The notes under the pieces were generated by a model that saw only the letters and a list, made by a program, of their open reading frames with translations, had not been told where the DNA came from and made no database searches. From Acidimicrobiaceae bacterium (GTDB lineage Bacteria; Actinomycetota; Acidimicrobiia; Acidimicrobiales; RAAP-2), in assembly GCA_027449885.1 (NCBI GenBank), contig DAIDKS010000032.1, positions 1 through 64,000 of the forward strand: a stretch of DNA of 64,000 nucleotides, given 5' to 3'. Position numbers and translations under genes: made by a program. Positions 33,671-44,227 of the stretch are shown one piece after another (within the stretch, counting starts at the first letter, position 1; each line of letters opens with the position of its first letter).

Positions 33671-34576
33671 TCATCCCTCCGAGGTGATGCCCCGGGTGAT
33701 CCAGTTCGCACTGCGGCGACTCATCACTCGATCGACCAGGTTGGAGAACGAGCCCTCCCGCTCGACCGTCCGACGGATCACGACCGACAGGGTGGGCAGG
33801 GCCCAGAAGTCGCCGCAGACCCAGAGGATGGCGGCGCCGATCTGCTGGTCGGGGAAGGGGGCGAGGCTCACGCCGGGGACGTGGGCGTAGACCGAGTACC
33901 AACTCGTGGTGGTGAGGATGCTCATCGACATCGCGAGGATGGTCATCACCAGGTTCACGAAGATGATGGCCCCGATCTGCCAGATGCCGCCGCGAGCGGG
34001 ACGCGCCGGGCTCGAGGGAATGATCTGAAGCCAGAAGAGCGTCCCGAAGACGAGGAAGCTGCCGTGCATCAGCCAGACGTGCACGAGGTTGTTGTTCTCG
34101 GCGAGGTCGAACATCACCGGGATGTGCCACAGCACCATGATCCCCGAGAACCCGATCACGGCGACCCACGGGTCCCGGATCACCCGGCCGATGACGCGCC
34201 AGACGGCCGCCCGGCGGGAGAGGAAGAGGAACCGACCCACCTTGCGACGGGCCCCGACCGGCAGCCCGAAGAGCAGGGGCGTCCAGGGAGCCCCTCCCAC
34301 GATGAGCATGGGCACGAAGAACGCGGCGACGACGTGATCGATCATGTGGACGTAGAAGTAGCTCGACGACCAGTAGTCGAGCGGCGACACGATCGCGACC
34401 ACCGTGAGCGCCAGACCCCCGTAGAAGAACAGGGAGCGAACACGACGGCGGTGACGACGCGAGGGATCGGCCGTGCGGTGCAGCAGCCGCCGCAATCCGA
34501 CCTCGTGCCAGATCGCCGTCACCGCGAGGACGGCGACGATCGGGTCGAAGCTCCAGTGACGCAAGAGTACGCTCAC
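33671..34576 (-). CDS. CtaG/Caa3-type cytochrome oxidase assembly membrane protein (copy 1)
   Basis: FYVHMIDHVVAAFFVPMLIVGGAPWTPLLFGLP, multi-TM caa3_CtaG-like. Confidence 0.82.
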   Translation of the reverse strand: MSVLLRHWSFDPIVAVLAVTAIWHEVGLRRLLHRTADPSRRHRRRVRSLFFYGGLALTVVAIVSPLDYWSSSYFYVHMIDHVVAAFFVPMLIVGGAPWTPLLFGLPVGARRKVGRFLFLSRRAAVWRVIGRVIRDPWVAVIGFSGIMVLWHIPVMFDLAENNNLVHVWLMHGSFLVFGTLFWLQIIPSSPARPARGGIWQIGAIIFVNLVMTILAMSMSILTTTSWYSVYAHVPGVSLAPFPDQQIGAAILWVCGDFWALPTLSVVIRRTVEREGSFSNLVDRVMSRRSANWITRGITSEG

Positions 34577-34914
34577 GCCGGCGTTCCGGTCCCGTCGGTG
34601 TCGTCCGCGTCCTCACGGCCCCGCTGGACGTCCTGCCAGGCCTTGAGCATCGACGCGTACTCCGGGGCGAGACCGGGCTCCGGTCGCCGCGACGGCCGCG
34701 GCGCCCGGTCACCGTGCAGGAACTTCCACCACATGTAGACGGCGAAGACGGCGAGCAGGGGCCACTCGAAGACGTAGGCCCAACTGAGGGCGTTGCCCCT
34801 CTCCGCGCGACCGAGTTCGAACCAGAAGGCCGCCCCGCACAGCGCGAGCCCCGCGACCAGCGCCACGTGCGTGCGCCACGCGCCGGACGGCGGGACCGGC
34901 TCCGTCTCCCCCAT
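34573..34914 (-). CDS. Small membrane protein with GNALSWAYVFEWPLLAVFAVYMWWK motif (paralog A)
   Basis: Two TM segments; GTGA overlap with CtaG; paralog at 41747-42061. Confidence 0.75.
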   Translation of the reverse strand: MGETEPVPPSGAWRTHVALVAGLALCGAAFWFELGRAERGNALSWAYVFEWPLLAVFAVYMWWKFLHGDRAPRPSRRPEPGLAPEYASMLKAWQDVQRGREDADDTDGTGTPA

Positions 34915-34973
34915 GCGGTCATGGTAGCGGGCCCCCGGTCGACCGCGACCACCCGTCGGTAGAGTGGCGAGTC

Positions 34974-35771
34974 GTGGCCGACGCAGCACCTCCCCCCCGA
35001 CCGCTGTCCGCCGACGAGCGCGAGGCCGCCTTCCGAGCCGGACGCGCCCCGGTCCCCCCTCGGTTCATCGTCATCGCCGTCGCCGTGCTCGTCGTCCTGG
35101 GCCTCGGTGGCGTCGTCATGGAACACGTCTTCGGCAATCCGCACGGCGTCGCGTCCACCGGCGGCACGACCCCACAGCCCACGACCACCCTGCCGGTCAC
35201 CGGAGCCCGATCCGTCATCGCCCTGACCCGGGTCGGCGCCACCCCCGCACCACCTCTCTCGCTCGACGACGCCGCCGGCCGACCCTGGAGCCTCGCTCGG
35301 GCTCGTGGTCAGGTCCTGATCCTCGGGTTTGTCGACGCCACCTGCAACGACATCTGCCCCGTGCTCGGCCAGGAGCTCCGTCAGGCGCTCGTCGACCTCG
35401 GCCCCCAGCGGGCCCGCGTCGACGTGACGCTCGTGAACACCGACCCCGTCCATACGCGCATCACGGGCGTACCCGCGGCCCTGCGCCTCACCGGACTCGA
35501 CGCCTTCCCGAACGTCACCTTCCTCTCGGGAACGCTGTCACAGCTCTCGCGCGTCTGGAACGCCTACGGCGTGCAGGTCCGCCTCGATCCCACGACCGGT
35601 CGTAGCGTCCACAACGACGTCCTCTACGTCCTCGACGCGCACGGGGACGTGCGATACCGGGCCCTACCGAGCGCCAACGAGACCACGAGCGGCGTCTACC
35701 GACTCGACAGCGCGACCGAGGCGCTCGCGGCCCGGGCGATCGCGGGAGCGGCCGGTAGTCTGGCCGGATGA
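34974..35771 (+). CDS. SCO1/SenC-type copper chaperone, membrane anchored
   Basis: N-terminal TM; thioredoxin fold with CNDIC motif and distal His (VHNDVLYVLD). Confidence 0.85.
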   Translation: MADAAPPPRPLSADEREAAFRAGRAPVPPRFIVIAVAVLVVLGLGGVVMEHVFGNPHGVASTGGTTPQPTTTLPVTGARSVIALTRVGATPAPPLSLDDAAGRPWSLARARGQVLILGFVDATCNDICPVLGQELRQALVDLGPQRARVDVTLVNTDPVHTRITGVPAALRLTGLDAFPNVTFLSGTLSQLSRVWNAYGVQVRLDPTTGRSVHNDVLYVLDAHGDVRYRALPSANETTSGVYRLDSATEALAARAIAGAAGSLAG

Positions 35772-36448
35772 CGAGCCCCACCCCCGACGAGCGCGCCTCG
35801 GCGTACAACCCGGCCTCCATGCCGGCGTCGAGCCTCGCCACGACTAAGGCCGTCTGGTATCGACGCCCGTGGTTCCTCCTCGCCCTCCTCGTCGTGGTGG
35901 GCGTGCTCGTCTCGGTCCTCGCCGACGTGACGAGTCCGATCACCGCGGCACAGGACGCCGCCGACCAGAATGCCCTGATCAAACAGGTCAATCAAGGAAT
36001 CGCTCCCTGCTCGTACGCCCTGACCGAGTCCTTCTCCTTCTTCAACGAGTGGCGCGCCGGTCGATTGACCTCCGGCAACCTCGCCCAGATCCCCAAGCTC
36101 CTCACCGACGACCAGACCAACTGCTCCCTGGCGAGCGGCCCGATCTACGACATGAGCAACAGCGTCGTGCCCCTCAACACGCCCGCCGGCAAGCAGATCG
36201 GCCTCATGTACCAGACGGTCCTCACGTGGGTCACGGGAGACGCCCTGCACGCGATCGAGGACATCCAGTACTCCTTCGCGCATCCCGGCGACACCACCCG
36301 CTTCGGTGACCTCGCGCGCCAGGCGCGACTCCTCTCCTCGGACCGTGCCGTCGCTCTGCAGTACCTAGCGAACGCCGGCAACATCCTCGGTCAGAGCCTC
36401 ACCGCCCTGAAGTTGCCGGTGATGGCTCCCCTGCGTGGACTGACCTGA
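35768..36448 (+). CDS. Hypothetical membrane-anchored protein, coupled to SCO1
   Basis: ATGA overlap with SCO1; single N-terminal TM. Confidence 0.6.
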   Translation: MTSPTPDERASAYNPASMPASSLATTKAVWYRRPWFLLALLVVVGVLVSVLADVTSPITAAQDAADQNALIKQVNQGIAPCSYALTESFSFFNEWRAGRLTSGNLAQIPKLLTDDQTNCSLASGPIYDMSNSVVPLNTPAGKQIGLMYQTVLTWVTGDALHAIEDIQYSFAHPGDTTRFGDLARQARLLSSDRAVALQYLANAGNILGQSLTALKLPVMAPLRGLT

Positions 36449-36449
36449 G

Positions 36450-37208
36450 TCAGTCACGCGTCCCGAAGAATCCGCGGGCCCGCTCGTCACGAACCAGGCG
36501 GTAGAGCTCGTCGCTCGGATCCTCTTCCGACTGCAGCCAGTGCATCAGGTTCCAGAAGACGATCGGGACGAACGCGGCCGCTGAGAGGAGCCAGATCGAC
36601 CCGGCACTGAGCTGTTGGTCCGCGGGGAGGGACAGTCCGCCGGGACGGTGGGTGAAGACCGTGTACCACGACGTCGCCGACATCCCGTTCAGGTAGGCGA
36701 CGATCCACACCGCCCACATGACGACCGCCGAGACGCCGATCCGCATCGGTCGCGCCGTACGGGCCCGTAGGGGTGGCGAGTCGATCAGGTCGATGAAGAC
36801 GGCGAGGGCCCCCCCGGTCAGGGTCAGCGCCTCGAGGACGACGACAATCGGATGCCGCACGAGGGCGTCCACCACCGGTGCGACCCGCCACAGGATCGCG
36901 AGGGCGACGAGGAGGGCGCTGCGGGCGATCAGTCGGCGCTGGCCGGACGTCCGGTTGTGGCGCTCGATCCTCTCGTCGCCTCGTCGCGTGCCGTCGAGCG
37001 CCACGGAGGACCACCGCAGCGCCCCCCACGGCGCCCCCACGGCGAGGAGCACCGGGGCGACGAAGGTGAAGACCGCGTACTGCAGGGCCTGCGCGAACTC
37101 GTAGTGGCGAGCCCCCGATGACAGAGGCGGCACCAGCCACCCCACCCACAGCACGACCCCGAGGATCGCGCTGGCTCGGCGAAGTGAACGGTGCCGCTCC
37201 TCCATCAC
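36450..37208 (-). CDS. CtaG-like cytochrome oxidase assembly membrane protein (copy 2)
   Basis: FAQALQYAVFTFVAPVLLAVGAPWGALR, multi-TM; resembles caa3_CtaG. Confidence 0.72.
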   Translation of the reverse strand: MMEERHRSLRRASAILGVVLWVGWLVPPLSSGARHYEFAQALQYAVFTFVAPVLLAVGAPWGALRWSSVALDGTRRGDERIERHNRTSGQRRLIARSALLVALAILWRVAPVVDALVRHPIVVVLEALTLTGGALAVFIDLIDSPPLRARTARPMRIGVSAVVMWAVWIVAYLNGMSATSWYTVFTHRPGGLSLPADQQLSAGSIWLLSAAAFVPIVFWNLMHWLQSEEDPSDELYRLVRDERARGFFGTRD

Positions 37209-37228
37209 GCTACGGACCGTAGTCGGTC

Positions 37229-37339
37229 CTACTCCGACGGATGCCGCTGGAAGAAGCCCCAGATGAGGACCGCGATCAGCACGCCCAAGAGGACGAACGT
37301 CGTCTCGGCCTCGGCCCAGATGTAGTTATCGATGCCCAT
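37229..37339 (-). CDS. 36-aa single-TM microprotein in the cox operon (not in the supplied ORF track)
   Basis: ATG...TAG encodes MGIDNYIWAEAETTFVLLGVLIAVLIWGFFQRHPSE; strong SD AGGAGGGGACG before ATG; immediately 3' of ctaE. Confidence 0.78.
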   Translation of the reverse strand: MGIDNYIWAEAETTFVLLGVLIAVLIWGFFQRHPSE

Positions 37340-37348
37340 CGTCCCCTC

Positions 37349-37996
37349 CTAGATCAGGTAGAACAACGCGAAGAAGAAGGCCGCCCCGACGCCCACGAAC
37401 CCCATGAAGTAGGTCATCGACGCCACGTTGGCCCGGAACGACTGCGCGGAGGGGTGCGTCGAGAGCGTCGGACGATCTCCGCCGATCTCGGTGCGCAGCC
37501 GCATTCCACGCGCCAGAGCGGTCTCCACCCAGTACGCCGACACGACGAGCGTCGCGATGTTGAACACGCCCCACCCGATGAAGCTCGACGCGTAGCCACT
37601 GGCTCCTGGGTAGAACGGCAACTTCGTCAGTTCCCAGATCTGCAGCATGAGGGCGCCCACCAGCAGCACGAGTGCCGTCCAGCCGGCCACCTGCCAGTCA
37701 GCCACGCCCCCGCGTCGGAAGCGCCACTGCCCGTAGACCGCGAGGACCCCGGCGAGAGCCGTGGCGAGCACGATCCCCCAACCGAACGACATCGGCGCCG
37801 TCATGTGGTGCGGGCGCCAGAGGTTCCCGCTGTTGGACGAGCGCAGGTAGAAGTACGTGTACGCCAACGACGCCAGCAGAAAGGTGTACATCCCGATGAA
37901 GAGGCGTCCACCCGACCACACCGAACCGATGTGGGCTCGCAGCTCGAATTCCTCCTCCTCGGGGGTGGAGGTGTAGCCCTGTTCGACTTTCGCCAT
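37349..37996 (-). CDS. ctaE: Cytochrome c oxidase subunit III
   Basis: GRLFIGMYTFLLASLAYTYFYLRSSN...; TM pattern; in operon with ctaD. Confidence 0.9.
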   Translation of the reverse strand: MAKVEQGYTSTPEEEEFELRAHIGSVWSGGRLFIGMYTFLLASLAYTYFYLRSSNSGNLWRPHHMTAPMSFGWGIVLATALAGVLAVYGQWRFRRGGVADWQVAGWTALVLLVGALMLQIWELTKLPFYPGASGYASSFIGWGVFNIATLVVSAYWVETALARGMRLRTEIGGDRPTLSTHPSAQSFRANVASMTYFMGFVGVGAAFFFALFYLI

Positions 37997-38008
37997 GTCC
38001 CTCTCCTC

Positions 38009-39949
38009 TCAGTCCTGCGGCGCCGCGTGAACGAGTCCCGCGTCGCCGAGGTCGGCGACCGCAGGGGCCCCGGGCTCGCTGTAACGGTACGGGTCACTCA
38101 GGACGACCGGAATGCGCTCGAAGTTGTACGACGGCACCGGGTTGGCAGTCTGCCACTCCAGGCCGCGAGAGTCCCACGGGTTGGCCGGCGCCTTCTGCGG
38201 GTTGATCCAGAGCGAGTACACCATGTTGAAGGCGAAGATGAGGAACGAGAAGCCCAGCAGGAAGGCGCTCACCGACGAGAAGTCGTTGAGACCCTGCAGG
38301 TTCTTCGCGTACGTGAACACCCGTCGCGGCTGACCCAGCAGACCGATGATGAACATCGGGAAGAAGGTCAGGTTGAAGAAGACGAACATCGTCCAGAAGT
38401 GCCAGAGTCCGATCTTCTTGTTCAGCATCCGCCCGGTCATCTTCGGCAGCCAGTAGTAAAGCCCTCCCATGAAGGCGAAGAGCAGCCCACCCATGATCGT
38501 GTAGTGGAAGTGCGACAGCACGAAGAAGCCTCCGTGGACCGTCACGTTCACCGGCACGTCCGAGAGGAACACGCCCGTGACTCCACCGATCAGGAAGTTG
38601 AAGTACAGGGCGAGCGCGAACAGCATCGGTATCTCGAATCTGATCTTCGCCTTATAGAGCGTGCCCATGCCGACCAGGTAGATGAATCCCGTGGGAATCG
38701 AGATCAACTCCGTCGTCAGCATGAAGAGCGGGCGCATGTCCGGGTTGATACCGCTCTGGTACAGGTGGTGCTGCCACACGAAGAACGAGAGGAGGGCCAC
38801 CCCGATCATTCCCGCGGCGCCGACCTTGTAGGCGAAGAGCGGCTTTCGGGTGAAGACCGGGAGGATCTCCCCGACGATCCCGAAGCCCGGCAGCGCCATG
38901 ATGTACACCTCCGGGTGGCCGAAGAACCAGAAGAGGTTCTGCCACAGGTAGGCACTCCCGCCGTGCTCGTTGACGTAGAAGGCCGTCTGGGCCGTCTTGT
39001 CGAGGAGGCCGAAGACGCCCGCGGCGAAGAGCGTCGGCGTCGCCAGCGTCAGCAGGGCCGACGTCGCCAGCAGCGACCACACGAGGATCGGTACCCGGCT
39101 CCAGGTCATACCCGGCGCGCGGTAGTTGATGATCGTCACGGCCATGTTGAATCCCGCGGCCATCATGCCCATGCCGATGACGGCGAACCCGAAGAGGTAC
39201 CCGATCATTCCCGGGCCGGCCTGCGTCTGCAGCGGCGCGTAGCCCGTCCACCCGGTCGGGAAGCCGCCGAGCGGCAGCGCCGAGAAGATGACCATGTAGC
39301 CCGCCGTGAAGACCCAGAAGCTGAAGGCCTCGATGCGGGGGAAGGCCATCCGGCGCGAACCGATCATCAGGGGAACCAGGTAGTTGCCGAGCGGCCCGAC
39401 CACGATCGACGTCGCCATCATCATCATGACCGTTCCGTGCTCGGAGACGATCTTGATGTACGTGTCGGCACTGAAGTAGTGCGTCGTCGGGTTGAGTAGC
39501 TCGGTGCGGATCGCCATCGCGAGGAGCCCACCGGTGAACAGGAAGAGGAGCACGCCCACGACGTACTGCAGCCCGACCGTCTTGTGGTTGGTCGAGTACC
39601 GGAAGTACTTGCTCCATCCCTGGACGTCGACCTCCTTGCCCGGCTGTCGTCCGGCCATCTTGGCCAGCGGGTAGTTGAGCGCTCCGATGCCGAGCAGCCA
39701 GCCCGCCACACCGAAGATCTCGCCGAGCGTCACCGCGATGACGTTCTGCCCGCTGTTCTGGATGTACGGGTAACTGCTCGCGATCGCGTTGCCCAGCCAG
39801 TGGCCGAGGAGGTAGCCCACGATGGCCCCGACTATGGCGGTGCCCAGGTGCTGGCTCCAGATTCCCGGTCGCTGGGTCCACGAGACCCGCTCGGTCGTCG
39901 TGGTGGCGCCCCCGCTGGTCGCCACCGGACGCTCGGCACTGATCGTCAT
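38009..39949 (-). CDS. ctaD: Heme-copper oxidase subunit I (divergent), with N-terminal TM extension
   Basis: Heme/CuB ligands retained (SEHGTV, GHPEVY, WQHHLY, LSHFHY). Confidence 0.96.
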   Translation of the reverse strand: MTISAERPVATSGGATTTTERVSWTQRPGIWSQHLGTAIVGAIVGYLLGHWLGNAIASSYPYIQNSGQNVIAVTLGEIFGVAGWLLGIGALNYPLAKMAGRQPGKEVDVQGWSKYFRYSTNHKTVGLQYVVGVLLFLFTGGLLAMAIRTELLNPTTHYFSADTYIKIVSEHGTVMMMMATSIVVGPLGNYLVPLMIGSRRMAFPRIEAFSFWVFTAGYMVIFSALPLGGFPTGWTGYAPLQTQAGPGMIGYLFGFAVIGMGMMAAGFNMAVTIINYRAPGMTWSRVPILVWSLLATSALLTLATPTLFAAGVFGLLDKTAQTAFYVNEHGGSAYLWQNLFWFFGHPEVYIMALPGFGIVGEILPVFTRKPLFAYKVGAAGMIGVALLSFFVWQHHLYQSGINPDMRPLFMLTTELISIPTGFIYLVGMGTLYKAKIRFEIPMLFALALYFNFLIGGVTGVFLSDVPVNVTVHGGFFVLSHFHYTIMGGLLFAFMGGLYYWLPKMTGRMLNKKIGLWHFWTMFVFFNLTFFPMFIIGLLGQPRRVFTYAKNLQGLNDFSSVSAFLLGFSFLIFAFNMVYSLWINPQKAPANPWDSRGLEWQTANPVPSYNFERIPVVLSDPYRYSEPGAPAVADLGDAGLVHAAPQD

Positions 39950-39998
39950 CGTCCGCTCCCCTTCTTCATCTCACGAGAATTCGTCATTGCATCCCCCA

Positions 39999-40958
39999 TC
40001 ACGACGCCGGGTTCTTCGAGCCGTAGACCTCGACCGAGCTGTAGGGCGTGGCCTTGCCGTCCGGGTAGTACCCACCGTTCGCCCCGTTGGCGTCCGGCAC
40101 GTACGTCCAGGCGAAGGGCGGCAGGAGCTTCGTGTTGGCCGCGTTGGCCGCCTCGGTCTGCTGGGCCCAGGACTGGAACGCCGCGGGCGTCACGACCTGG
40201 CCCGAGTTGTACATCGCCCCGTGCCAGATGCCGCAGAGCTCGCTGCAGCGGACCATGAAGGAGCCGAGCTGCTTCGTCTCGGTGTAGGCGACGTCGTTGA
40301 CCTGCGGGTTCGCGTCGGCCTTCACGCCGAGCTGGTAGGCCCAGAAGCTGTGGATGACGTCGAGCGACGTGACGTTGAACACGATCGTCGCGTTGTCCGG
40401 CAGGATCAGCTGTGAGGTCTCGAAGCCGCCGAAGGTCGGGTACCGGTAGGTGAACTTCCACTGCTGACCGATCACCTGCACCGGCAGCGCCTGTCCGGGC
40501 GTCCACCCGGAGTTCGGCGAGAACGCAGCGGTCTCGGCCTGCGCGGCTCCCGAGGGTGCCCAGATCGGGTTCGGTCCCTCACCGCCGCCCGATCCGTGGT
40601 CCACGACGAGGGCCCACGTCCCGAAGGCCGCCGCGGCCAGAGTCATCACCGAGGTGATGGAGATCCAGAGCACCTGCGTGCGTGTATTGCCGCGCGCCGC
40701 GTCGCCACCGACGGGGTCCGGGGCGCGCTTCGCGCTCCAGACCGTGATCGCGTACCCCATGTAGACCCAGACGCCGATCACCACGGGCAGGGCCACCATC
40801 AGCAGGATGTTGAAGTCGATCTGGTCGTGGTAGGCGGTCTCGGTCATCCGTCCCGGCGGCATGTGCGGCCCCAGCACGAACCAACCGAGGAGGTCGGCCG
40901 CGATGGAGAGGATGACCCAGATGGTGGTCATCCGGCGGAGGTGGTGCGTCTCGTTCAT
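39999..40958 (-). CDS. ctaC: Cytochrome c oxidase subunit II
   Basis: CuA motif: IHSFW ... CSELCGIWHGAM; two N-terminal TMs. Confidence 0.94.
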   Translation of the reverse strand: MNETHHLRRMTTIWVILSIAADLLGWFVLGPHMPPGRMTETAYHDQIDFNILLMVALPVVIGVWVYMGYAITVWSAKRAPDPVGGDAARGNTRTQVLWISITSVMTLAAAAFGTWALVVDHGSGGGEGPNPIWAPSGAAQAETAAFSPNSGWTPGQALPVQVIGQQWKFTYRYPTFGGFETSQLILPDNATIVFNVTSLDVIHSFWAYQLGVKADANPQVNDVAYTETKQLGSFMVRCSELCGIWHGAMYNSGQVVTPAAFQSWAQQTEAANAANTKLLPPFAWTYVPDANGANGGYYPDGKATPYSSVEVYGSKNPAS

Positions 40959-40988
40959 GTCTGCTCTTCTCTCCGTTCTCGATCGTGC

Positions 40989-41669
40989 CTAGCGGACCAC
41001 GTCCAGGACGCCGCCCATGTAGTTCTGCGTCGCCATGGGACCGCCGTTGCCGAACAGGTACCCGAGACCGCACGGGACGAAGCACTGCCAGGAGTACGTC
41101 CCGGGTCCCGGGGTCTTGAACTCGAACGACACGGTGTTGTGCGGCGAGCTCTGGTGACACGGTCCCGCGCCACAGATGTTGGGGTTGCTCACCCCGGGCA
41201 GCGGCACCGCGAGCCCCAGGGCCGGCACCGCGAAGGTGTGTCCGACGCCGCCACCCGAGTTCGAGTCCACGACGCTGACGGTCTGGCCGTTCACCGTGGC
41301 GGTACCGCCGATCGTTCCCTGAACCTGGCCCCACTCCTGGTTGCGCAGCGGACCACCGGAGTCGTACTGGTACACCGTCATGTGCACCACGGTGTCGGCG
41401 GGCAGCTTCCAGGACGTGTCCTGGACCCAGGCTCCCGTGGTCGGGTCCTTCACCAGGTACGAGACCCACGTGGGGTGAGCTCCGAAGCCGATCGCGCCGA
41501 CCGTCTGCACCGTGATGTTGACCGGTTGCCCCGCACTGGCGGTCGTCGTGAAGTCCATCTCCCCGCCCGGCGTTCCGGGAGTCAGGAAGGCGGCCACGGC
41601 CCAGACGACGAGTCCGACCGCAACCAGGAACAACACGATGACGGTGGCGAATCTCCCCTGCTTCGACAT
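40989..41669 (-). CDS. Membrane-anchored cupredoxin-like protein (subunit II-like)
   Basis: N-terminal TM; HTFAVP ... TYSWQCFVPCGLGYLFGNGGPM; upstream of ctaC; SD AAGGAG. Confidence 0.75.
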   Translation of the reverse strand: MSKQGRFATVIVLFLVAVGLVVWAVAAFLTPGTPGGEMDFTTTASAGQPVNITVQTVGAIGFGAHPTWVSYLVKDPTTGAWVQDTSWKLPADTVVHMTVYQYDSGGPLRNQEWGQVQGTIGGTATVNGQTVSVVDSNSGGGVGHTFAVPALGLAVPLPGVSNPNICGAGPCHQSSPHNTVSFEFKTPGPGTYSWQCFVPCGLGYLFGNGGPMATQNYMGGVLDVVR

Positions 41670-41746
41670 GGACCACTCCTTCGAGTACGCGTCACGAAAT
41701 GAAGACCAGGAGAGAGTAACGATTTTCCGGACTAACTTCGTGATTG

Positions 41747-42061
41747 GTGCGAGGCGAACATAAGAGGACTCTTGTAATCCACTTCGGACTTCTGCTCGCC
41801 GAAGTAATCTGTATTTCGGCGTTCTACGTTGAGTTACGACGTGCAGTTGGTGGGAATTCCCTCTCGTGGGCCTACGTCTTCGAGTGGCCCCTCTTCGCCG
41901 GCTACGCCGTCTACATGTGGAAGAGGCTTCTCAGGGACGAGGTCGGGGCTGGCCCGGCGAGCCCGTCGTCGCCCGCGTCCGCGGTCGACGACGATCGTCT
42001 CGCCGCCTACAACGAGTACCTCGAGTCCGTGCACCGCGAGAACCCGGACCGACCCCGCTAG
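41747..42061 (+). CDS. Small membrane protein with GNSLSWAYVFEWPLFAGYAVYMWKR motif (paralog B)
   Basis: Paralog of 34573-34914; two TM segments. Confidence 0.75.
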   Translation: MRGEHKRTLVIHFGLLLAEVICISAFYVELRRAVGGNSLSWAYVFEWPLFAGYAVYMWKRLLRDEVGAGPASPSSPASAVDDDRLAAYNEYLESVHRENPDRPR

Positions 42062-43791
42062 GCGATGCCCTCCGTCGCGAGCAGGTGACGGAGCTCGGCG
42101 ACCGACGACGACGTGAGTGACGTGGCGGAGAGCGGGTCGTCTCCGATGATCCAGCGGATCCGTCCGCCCCGGATGATGAACATGAAGTCCGAGTGGATGC
42201 TCATGCGGTCGGTGGGCTTCATCGTCACCTCGATCCCGTAGGCCCGCCACACGGCCCTGACGGCCGCCAGCCTCCCCGTGACGAAGTAGAAGTCCCTCAC
42301 GCCGAACAGTCGATGGAGGCTCATGAAGTGGCGGACGTTGGCCCGCGTCTCGTGGTACGGATCCGCCGCCACCGCGACGATGTCGAGGGGGGCGCGGGCG
42401 GGGAGTTCGCTACGCAGGATCTTCAGCTGCTCGGCGAGCAGCGGGCAGTCCGTCCAGCACATGGGGTCGAGAAAGGTCAGGATCGTCACCCGTCCCGGTC
42501 GTTCGCCCAGGGTGTACCGGGCGCCGTTCTGGTCGGTGAGGGTGAACGGGCGGGCGGGGACGTTGGTCGACGTGGCGGGCCCGTTCTGGGCGAGGAACAT
42601 CGTCGTCTCCGCCCCCGCGAAGGGAGCCCACGCCATCGCCGACGTCGCGACCACGACGGCCGCGGCCGCGAAGGACGCCGCGGCGGCACCCGCACTCGAC
42701 CAGGCCTCTCGCGGGATCCGGTCGCGCACCGCCGAGCGGCGCTCCACCGGGCGGCGCGGCATGGCGGCGAGAGCGACGAGCCCGAGGGGCACCAGTGAGT
42801 TCACGTCGGTGGCCAGGCCCCCAAAGACGGCGGCGTCTTGCGCGAGGACCCAGAGCACGCCGGCCCCGGTCGCCAGGAGGAGGTAGGGCCACCGCCGCGC
42901 CGCCGTGCGTCGCCGCACCAGCCCGCCCGCCGTGGTGAGCATCCACGCGATGATCACCACGTTCACCGCGGGCCCGCCGGCTCGAGCGACGTGTCCCGCC
43001 TCCCTGACGGTCGACGCCAGCCACGAGGGCTGCGCGACGGACGCCATCGACGTCGCCATTGCCGACCAGGCGTTGGACGCCCCCCGGCGCCAGAATCCCG
43101 TTCCCGGCAGCACCTGCAGGATCGCTCCCAGCGACAGCAGTCCCGCCAGCCCGTAGCGGGAGATCCGGGAGAACTTCGAGCGGAGGGTCTCTCCGTCGAC
43201 GGCCAGCCAGAGCCCGGCGTAGACGTAGAAGAGCGTCGCCCCCGGCCAGCCGAAGAGCAGGCTGGCGCCGGGTGCGAAGACGCCACCGAATCCGTTCCCC
43301 ACCGTCCAGATCACCGCCGCCCAGATCGCGCTGAGCAGCCCCACGACGCGACTCGTGGATCCGCTCGCCGTGATGAGCAAGACGCCGAGACCCACCTGGA
43401 GCCACGCGACGCCGGCCGCCAGGGTCACCGGATGGGCATTCCACACGGCGATCGCGCTCGACATGAGGTGATGCAGCCAGCCGGGCGTGCCCGACCTGAG
43501 GGGTCCCACGACGTCGTTGCCGAGCCCCAACGGCATCGCGCTCTGGAACTGGAGGAGACCGTCGAGCAACCAGAGCAGTCCGAAGGACCGCCGAAGGAAG
43601 CGGCGGGCGGGCGCCTCGTCGGTGGCGGCCCCGTTGAACCGAAACACTCGACCGGACACCAGCCCCGCGAGCAGGATCGCCGACCCGATCGCGCCCAGCC
43701 ACAGGAGGAGGGTCACGAAGGTCGCGTGGCGGAAGAGCTCCACGACGAACGGATTCGTCAGGTTGAGACTCTTCAAATTCATTCCCGGCAC
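42058..43791 (-). CDS. Multi-TM domain fused to C-terminal SCO1/SenC-like thioredoxin domain
   Basis: ~350-aa polytopic N-terminal half (WLLDGLLQFQSAMPLGLGNDVV) plus SCO domain with CWTDC and distal His (SIHSDFMFII); GTG 43791 with SD GGAGGGAG. Confidence 0.82.
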   Translation of the reverse strand: MPGMNLKSLNLTNPFVVELFRHATFVTLLLWLGAIGSAILLAGLVSGRVFRFNGAATDEAPARRFLRRSFGLLWLLDGLLQFQSAMPLGLGNDVVGPLRSGTPGWLHHLMSSAIAVWNAHPVTLAAGVAWLQVGLGVLLITASGSTSRVVGLLSAIWAAVIWTVGNGFGGVFAPGASLLFGWPGATLFYVYAGLWLAVDGETLRSKFSRISRYGLAGLLSLGAILQVLPGTGFWRRGASNAWSAMATSMASVAQPSWLASTVREAGHVARAGGPAVNVVIIAWMLTTAGGLVRRRTAARRWPYLLLATGAGVLWVLAQDAAVFGGLATDVNSLVPLGLVALAAMPRRPVERRSAVRDRIPREAWSSAGAAAASFAAAAVVVATSAMAWAPFAGAETTMFLAQNGPATSTNVPARPFTLTDQNGARYTLGERPGRVTILTFLDPMCWTDCPLLAEQLKILRSELPARAPLDIVAVAADPYHETRANVRHFMSLHRLFGVRDFYFVTGRLAAVRAVWRAYGIEVTMKPTDRMSIHSDFMFIIRGGRIRWIIGDDPLSATSLTSSSVAELRHLLATEGIA

Positions 43792-43822
43792 GCGGGACTC
43801 CCTCCGCCAGAACCTCGCCAGG

Positions 43823-44227
43823 CTATTCGGGTGACGGCGTCTCCTCCAGGCAGGCAGAGAGCACACCGTTCACGAATCTCGGGGATCCGTCCGTCGAGAA
43901 CTCGTGGGCCAGCTCGACCGCCTCGTCCAGGACCACGGCGCGGGGCGGTGGAGCGGCCAGCGACAGCTCGCCGAGTGCCAACTCCATGATGAGCCGGTCG
44001 ACGAGGGCCAGGCGGTCGAAGCTCCACTCGCGCAGGTGCCGCGAGATTCGCTCGTCGGAGTCGTCGCGCTGCTCCTCCGCCGCCCGGGCGAGCGTCGACG
44101 CGTACGGGTCGGGCGCGACCGGGAGCGACGCGATGATGACGCCCACCGGTCGGCCCTTGATGAACGCCTCGTAGAGCAGTTCGAGCGCCCGTTCACGTGC
44201 GCGATGACGGGAGCCGCCGTCGAGCAC
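43823..44227 (-). CDS. nusB: Transcription antitermination factor NusB
   Basis: RHRARERALELLYEAFIKGR...VDRLIMELALGEL...VLDEAVELAHEFSTDGSPRFVNGVLSA. Confidence 0.95.
   Translation of the reverse strand: MLDGGSRHRARERALELLYEAFIKGRPVGVIIASLPVAPDPYASTLARAAEEQRDDSDERISRHLREWSFDRLALVDRLIMELALGELSLAAPPPRAVVLDEAVELAHEFSTDGSPRFVNGVLSACLEETPSPE

Follow-up and report, generated by a model that had tools for sequence, protein, structure and literature searches.

Behind ctaE in Acidimicrobiales: a conserved single-helix microprotein, probably a small subunit of a second cytochrome c oxidase that lacks CtaF

Does the short interval between ctaE and ctaG in a cytochrome oxidase operon of an Acidimicrobiaceae bacterium hide a further gene, and would its product belong to the oxidase? 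The window analysed here (the whole stretch of 64,000 nucleotides) carries on its minus strand, in this order, a cupredoxin-like gene, ctaC, ctaD, ctaE, a very short ORF and a caa3_CtaG gene (Table 1). A sequence-only reading had picked out the ORF as a hidden 36-residue microprotein with one transmembrane (TM) helix, preceded by a near-perfect Shine-Dalgarno sequence and starting 9 bp after the ctaE stop, and had suggested that it could be a small, subunit IV/CcoQ-like component of the oxidase. The ORF indeed reads exactly as described: the ctaE stop (TAG, 37351-37349) is followed directly by GAGGGGACG (9 bp) and the ATG, the Shine-Dalgarno sequence is AGGAGG, and translation from ATG to TAG, stop included, gives MGIDNYIWAEAETTFVLLGVLIAVLIWGFFQRHPSE. 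The best 19-mer, residues 13-31, has a hydropathy of 2.13, as expected for one helix. A promoter and terminator scan of positions 36000-42500 found none, and a long antisense ORF (37241-39499, plus strand) was treated as a G+C artefact.

Table 1. Positions in the window of the microprotein ORF and of the oxidase operon that contains it
Feature	Position	Strand	Remarks
Cupredoxin-like protein, 226 aa, membrane-anchored, with CFVPCGLGYLFGNGGPM	40989..41669	-	First operon gene; no Pfam match
ctaC, subunit II, CuA motif CSELCGIWHGAM intact, three predicted TM segments	39999..40958	-	PF00116
ctaD, subunit I, 646 aa, A-family	38009..39949	-	PF00115 E 4e-126
ctaE, subunit III (divergent, five helices), 215 aa	37349..37996	-	AF2, Foldseek
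Microprotein Shine-Dalgarno sequence AGGAGG	37345..37350	-	Overlaps ctaE stop, 5-nt spacer to ATG; read directly
Microprotein ORF (proposed small oxidase subunit), 36 aa, single-TM	37229..37339	-	ATG start, TAG stop; conserved, dN/dS ~0.2
caa3_CtaG-type assembly factor (ctaG)	36450..37208	-	PF09678 E 2e-18; directly downstream of microprotein

The pattern of variation in the ORF was that of a protein-coding sequence. Diversity at codon positions 1, 2 and 3 was 0.25, 0.14 and 0.50, mean pS was 0.68 against a mean pN of 0.18, and dN/dS was about 0.2 among 61 distinct sequences (about 0.21 as summed dN over summed dS for unsaturated pairs). Over the same 61 sequences the 28-codon core was constant in length and free of indels. 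The gap to ctaE was variable, 9 bp in the window and 20 to about 75 bp in the relatives measured, and the alternative frames were interrupted by stops in many members. D4, T13, L18, V24, W27, F30 and Q31 were invariant in an alignment of 21 members; T13, W27 and F30 stayed so in a wider alignment of 25, with the core LTxVIPLGVL..V..WGFFQR. By these comparative measures the ORF is a real coding gene under clear purifying selection.

We then asked how closely the microprotein is tied to this oxidase. The whole-genome search covered 61 genomes, 37 of them from the same genus. Homologues were found in 25 of the 37 (E 5e-21 to 4e-5), and an independent search with CtaE detected ctaE in exactly those 25 genomes; the other 12 were without both (G006, G007, G013, G015, G016, G017, G019, G022, G024, G025, G028 and G029). 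The hypergeometric probability of this co-occurrence is 5e-10 if the two genes were independent, a figure that is optimistic given their linkage and shared ancestry. Allowing for incomplete genomes, this oxidase looks patchy within the genus.

The association extends through the order. In a sample of 218 genomes of Acidimicrobiales, 18 encoded a clear CtaE relative (E below 1e-55), and the microprotein ORF was present in all 18. It lay directly after ctaE in most of them and one gene further on in families f50, f49 and part of f32, where the intervening gene was ctaG-like wherever it could be identified. Among the 18 is Acidimicrobium ferrooxidans ICP(T) (G068), in which the homologue reads, from its ATG, MFASVTGYSAAADMTFAIPIGIFAASLVFGFFARRRLGSRR. 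The microprotein profile also found members in other families of Acidimicrobiales, with ctaE within 1.5 kb of the ORF at 28 of the 29 loci recovered in this way (L048-L076); the remaining locus, L073, was a weak match and was rejected as spurious. Patterns from close relatives, scanned against a genome contig collection of 84,980 species, yielded 58 loci, and at each of them ctaE was found upstream of the ORF. The corresponding records are titled as Acidimicrobiaceae, Acidimicrobiales or Actinomycetes MAGs, and a few as Acidobacteria; their isolate names include bog, palsa and fen. One Acidobacteria title (L090) looks wrong, since its contig matches C139 in G011, a genome of the same genus. 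Searches with the profile at class and phylum level produced no convincing homologue outside the order (hits with E above 1e-3), and a tblastn search of plasmids with the microprotein gave no match. Conservation of the frame in relatives with the same oxidase had been set beforehand as the test of the sequence-only reading, and the frame was kept in 25/25 same-genus and 18/18 order genomes, the ORF lying beside ctaE or just past the next ctaG. Together with the dN/dS and the complete co-occurrence with ctaE, this bears out the proposal of a hidden coding gene tied to the oxidase. On the genomes compared here, it is next to this oxidase in particular that the microprotein is conserved across the acidophilic Acidimicrobiales, among them the iron oxidiser A. 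ferrooxidans.

Which oxidase is it? In CtaD, GHPEV and the active-site histidine motifs (HHLY and HFHYTIMGG) are all intact, and among solved structures its sequence is closest to actinobacterial aa3 enzymes. In the AF2 model of CtaD, the COX1 core is preceded by two extra helices at the N-terminus, predicted with confidence (35-57 and 70-88). Deep-branching COX1 proteins with two such helices are described in a study of iron-oxidiser oxidases, and the genes for these proteins are often clustered with caa3_CtaG (PMC8239418). CtaE matched no Pfam model; since its AF2 model, with five helices and a pLDDT above 90 for most residues, matches COX III chains in Foldseek, with a TM score to the target of up to 0.84, CtaE is, on this structural evidence, a divergent subunit III. 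The 226-residue cupredoxin-like protein could be a dedicated electron donor; the spacing within its CFVPCGLGYLFGNGGPM is CuA-like, and its gene is also found upstream of ctaC in those distant loci that extend that far.

At least two COX1 genes were found in each of the 13 genomes checked. The second COX1 of the host genome lies on contig C31, with an actinobacterial CtaF (PF12270) right behind it (G000:C31:27471-27851), and COX4_pro (PF03626) was found in 0 of the 13 genomes. Judged by gene content, the operon described here specifies a second A-family cytochrome c oxidase, one that lacks CtaF, while a canonical oxidase with CtaF is encoded elsewhere in the genome. In the ctaCDEFG operon of Bacillus, ctaF lies between ctaE and ctaG; because CtaF sits here at the other COX1 locus and COX4_pro is absent, the microprotein fills the ctaF position of a ctaF-less operon.

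Several neighbouring genes deserve mention in their own right. Convergent to ctaG is a gene for a 226-residue one-helix protein (35768-36448, plus strand; no Pfam match) that is conserved nearby in many related loci, mostly at about 27-52% identity. A 602-residue fusion (42058-43866, minus strand) joins an N-terminal multi-helix part, DoxX-like by eye, to a C-terminal SCO1/SenC domain (PF02630, residues 439-566). Two similar small membrane proteins of 114 and 105 residues (34573-34917, minus strand, and 41744-42061, plus strand) flank the oxidase region; they share the core GN(A/S)LSWAYVFEWPL and have no Pfam match.

We propose, with a probability of roughly 0.78, that the microprotein is a hidden small structural subunit of the CtaF-less A-family oxidase. 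Its conservation is concentrated in the helix and the inner aromatic end of the helix. Before Thr13, Lys or Arg occurs in 0 of 25 members, and after Trp27 in 24 of 25; given the positive-inside rule, these K/R-free N-termini and basic C-termini predict a single helix with the N-terminus out and the C-terminus in. Neither a soluble domain nor a conserved metal ligand (Cys, His or Met) appears in the 25-member alignment. This last observation bears on the main rival explanation, an unlikely one in our view, according to which the microprotein serves only in assembly or biogenesis, for example by aiding CtaG-type copper delivery to CtaD, and is absent from the mature enzyme. Operon linkage and co-occurrence would fit such a factor equally well, the ORF does lie between ctaE and ctaG or, as in f50, f49 and part of f32, after ctaG, and a few members have weak matches to FixS (best E 0.086). 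However, the part that is conserved is the helix, rather than a cytoplasmic or metal-binding domain or a set of ligands, and in most loci the ORF directly follows ctaE.

Could the microprotein instead have degenerated within a known family of small subunits, such as CcoQ/FixQ, ba3 subunit IIa or CcoM? It is of the same size class and has one helix, as they do, but searches of Pfam, NCBIfam and the PDB gave no credible match (none in the PDB at E 10), making this origin very improbable. A literature search turned up no description of such a protein from Acidimicrobiales. CcoQ/FixQ (PF05545) resembles the microprotein in its single helix and aromatic inner end, and CcoQ has an orientation similar to the predicted one. 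CcoQ/FixQ is, however, cbb3-specific, with a longer cytoplasmic tail, and is encoded with a cbb3 (ccoNOP) oxidase, whereas the partner here is an A-family CtaD with a CuA-type CtaC; the best FixQ match had an E of 0.19, in 2 of 21 members, with none in the wider set, and neither FixQ nor FixS matches were significant. The subunit IV proteins CtaF and COX4_pro share the operon slot between ctaE and ctaG, but both are longer and multi-helix. CtaF, at about 130 residues against 36, gave no profile match and is encoded by another gene of the same genomes, beside the other COX1; COX4_pro had no hmmscan match either.

Subunit IIa (CbaD) of ba3 oxidases, with 34 residues in Thermus (1xme_C) and 41 in Aquifex, is equally tiny and single-helical, is often overlooked in annotation (PMC3128077), and has a P-x-G-T element plus a Trp that are also present in some microprotein members. 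Its motif is P-x(1-3)-G-T/A, the Trp following the Gly at a distance of 16 residues (PMC3128077), against 8 in the microprotein; no match to PF08113 was found, and the hhalign probability against 1xme_C was 1.0. The setting differs as well. Subunit IIa belongs to a B-family enzyme, its gene is upstream of that for subunit II, and it superimposes, with opposite polarity, on the first helix of A-type subunit II (PMC3128077), and it replaces the helix missing from its one-helix partner, whereas the CtaC encoded here has three predicted TM segments and the microprotein gene comes after ctaE. CcoM of the Pseudomonas stutzeri cbb3 oxidase (36 residues, 5djq_N), a small subunit of the kind missed by annotation (PMC10433244), is alike in size and single helix; it belongs, however, to a C-family enzyme and has no sequence similarity to the microprotein (hhalign probability 3.3).

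The description 'subunit IV/CcoQ-like' accordingly stands for operon position (the ctaF slot), size and predicted topology, and falls for family membership, with CtaF, COX4_pro and FixQ unmatched and the oxidase a CuA-type A-family enzyme rather than a cbb3. As a functional class the comparison is closer: the microprotein is a conserved single-helix protein in, and co-occurring with, a heme-copper oxidase operon. As far as can be told, it would work like the known small subunits while standing outside all families tested, and it is best read as a single-helix accessory subunit that takes the ctaF position and forms a family of its own. Least probable of all, and barely credible, is a translated spacer or leader with no function as a protein, its sole effect being to couple the translation of ctaG to that of ctaE: the ORF does sit between two operon genes, with the ctaG start close behind and a GC-rich 6-bp hairpin (GGACCG-ACTA-CGGTCC, 37214-37229, minus strand) beginning at the microprotein stop just before it, but the hairpin region did not outdo shuffled sequences in folding (z -0.92), on which comparison an RNA leader or hairpin explanation was rejected, the dN/dS is about 0.2, the amino-acid motif is kept from family to family despite diverging nucleotides and gap lengths, and the ORF persists where its position relative to ctaG differs.

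If the microprotein is a small structural subunit of the oxidase, it would be co-translated with ctaE and insert as one helix, with its N-terminus outside and its basic C-terminus inside. It would pack along the rim of the CtaD/CtaE core, its conserved WGFFQR end serving as an anchor at the cytoplasmic face, and would stabilise the oxidase or help to assemble it, much as has been proposed for CcoM or subunit IIa in other oxidases. In AF2 read-through models the microprotein was helical but of low confidence, both in the CtaD-CtaE context (pLDDT about 33-50) and with CtaE alone (pLDDT about 56-75), and its placement was not confident in either. Position and co-occurrence favour the small oxidase subunit that had been suggested; its physical association with the enzyme and its stabilising role are what we infer from them.

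In family f23 (G058, G147 and G229), CtaD and CtaE are fused, into 842 residues in G058 (L195:4559-7087, minus strand), and a conserved 52-residue single-helix ORF, MMSHRYFIGAIDAFDLGLLTMAPLLLIGVASVGAWLFWRRNRDDQGGVHPPR, follows ctaG (L195:3491-3649, minus strand); it may be distantly related to the microprotein. A wider and decidedly tentative idea is that the microprotein may be the defining small subunit of a deep-branching A-family oxidase with two extra helices in acidophilic Acidimicrobiales, replacing CtaF, kept through shuffling around ctaG and through the CtaD-CtaE fusion (as the f23 ORF), and possibly unrecognised in other such acidophile oxidases.

Annotation has repeatedly overlooked single-helix subunits of respiratory enzymes, which can be required for assembly or stability. 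The microprotein described here is strongly conserved and marks one specific oxidase of the two encoded in the same genomes, and its order includes a cultured and sequenced iron oxidiser, Acidimicrobium ferrooxidans, in which its proposed role is directly testable.
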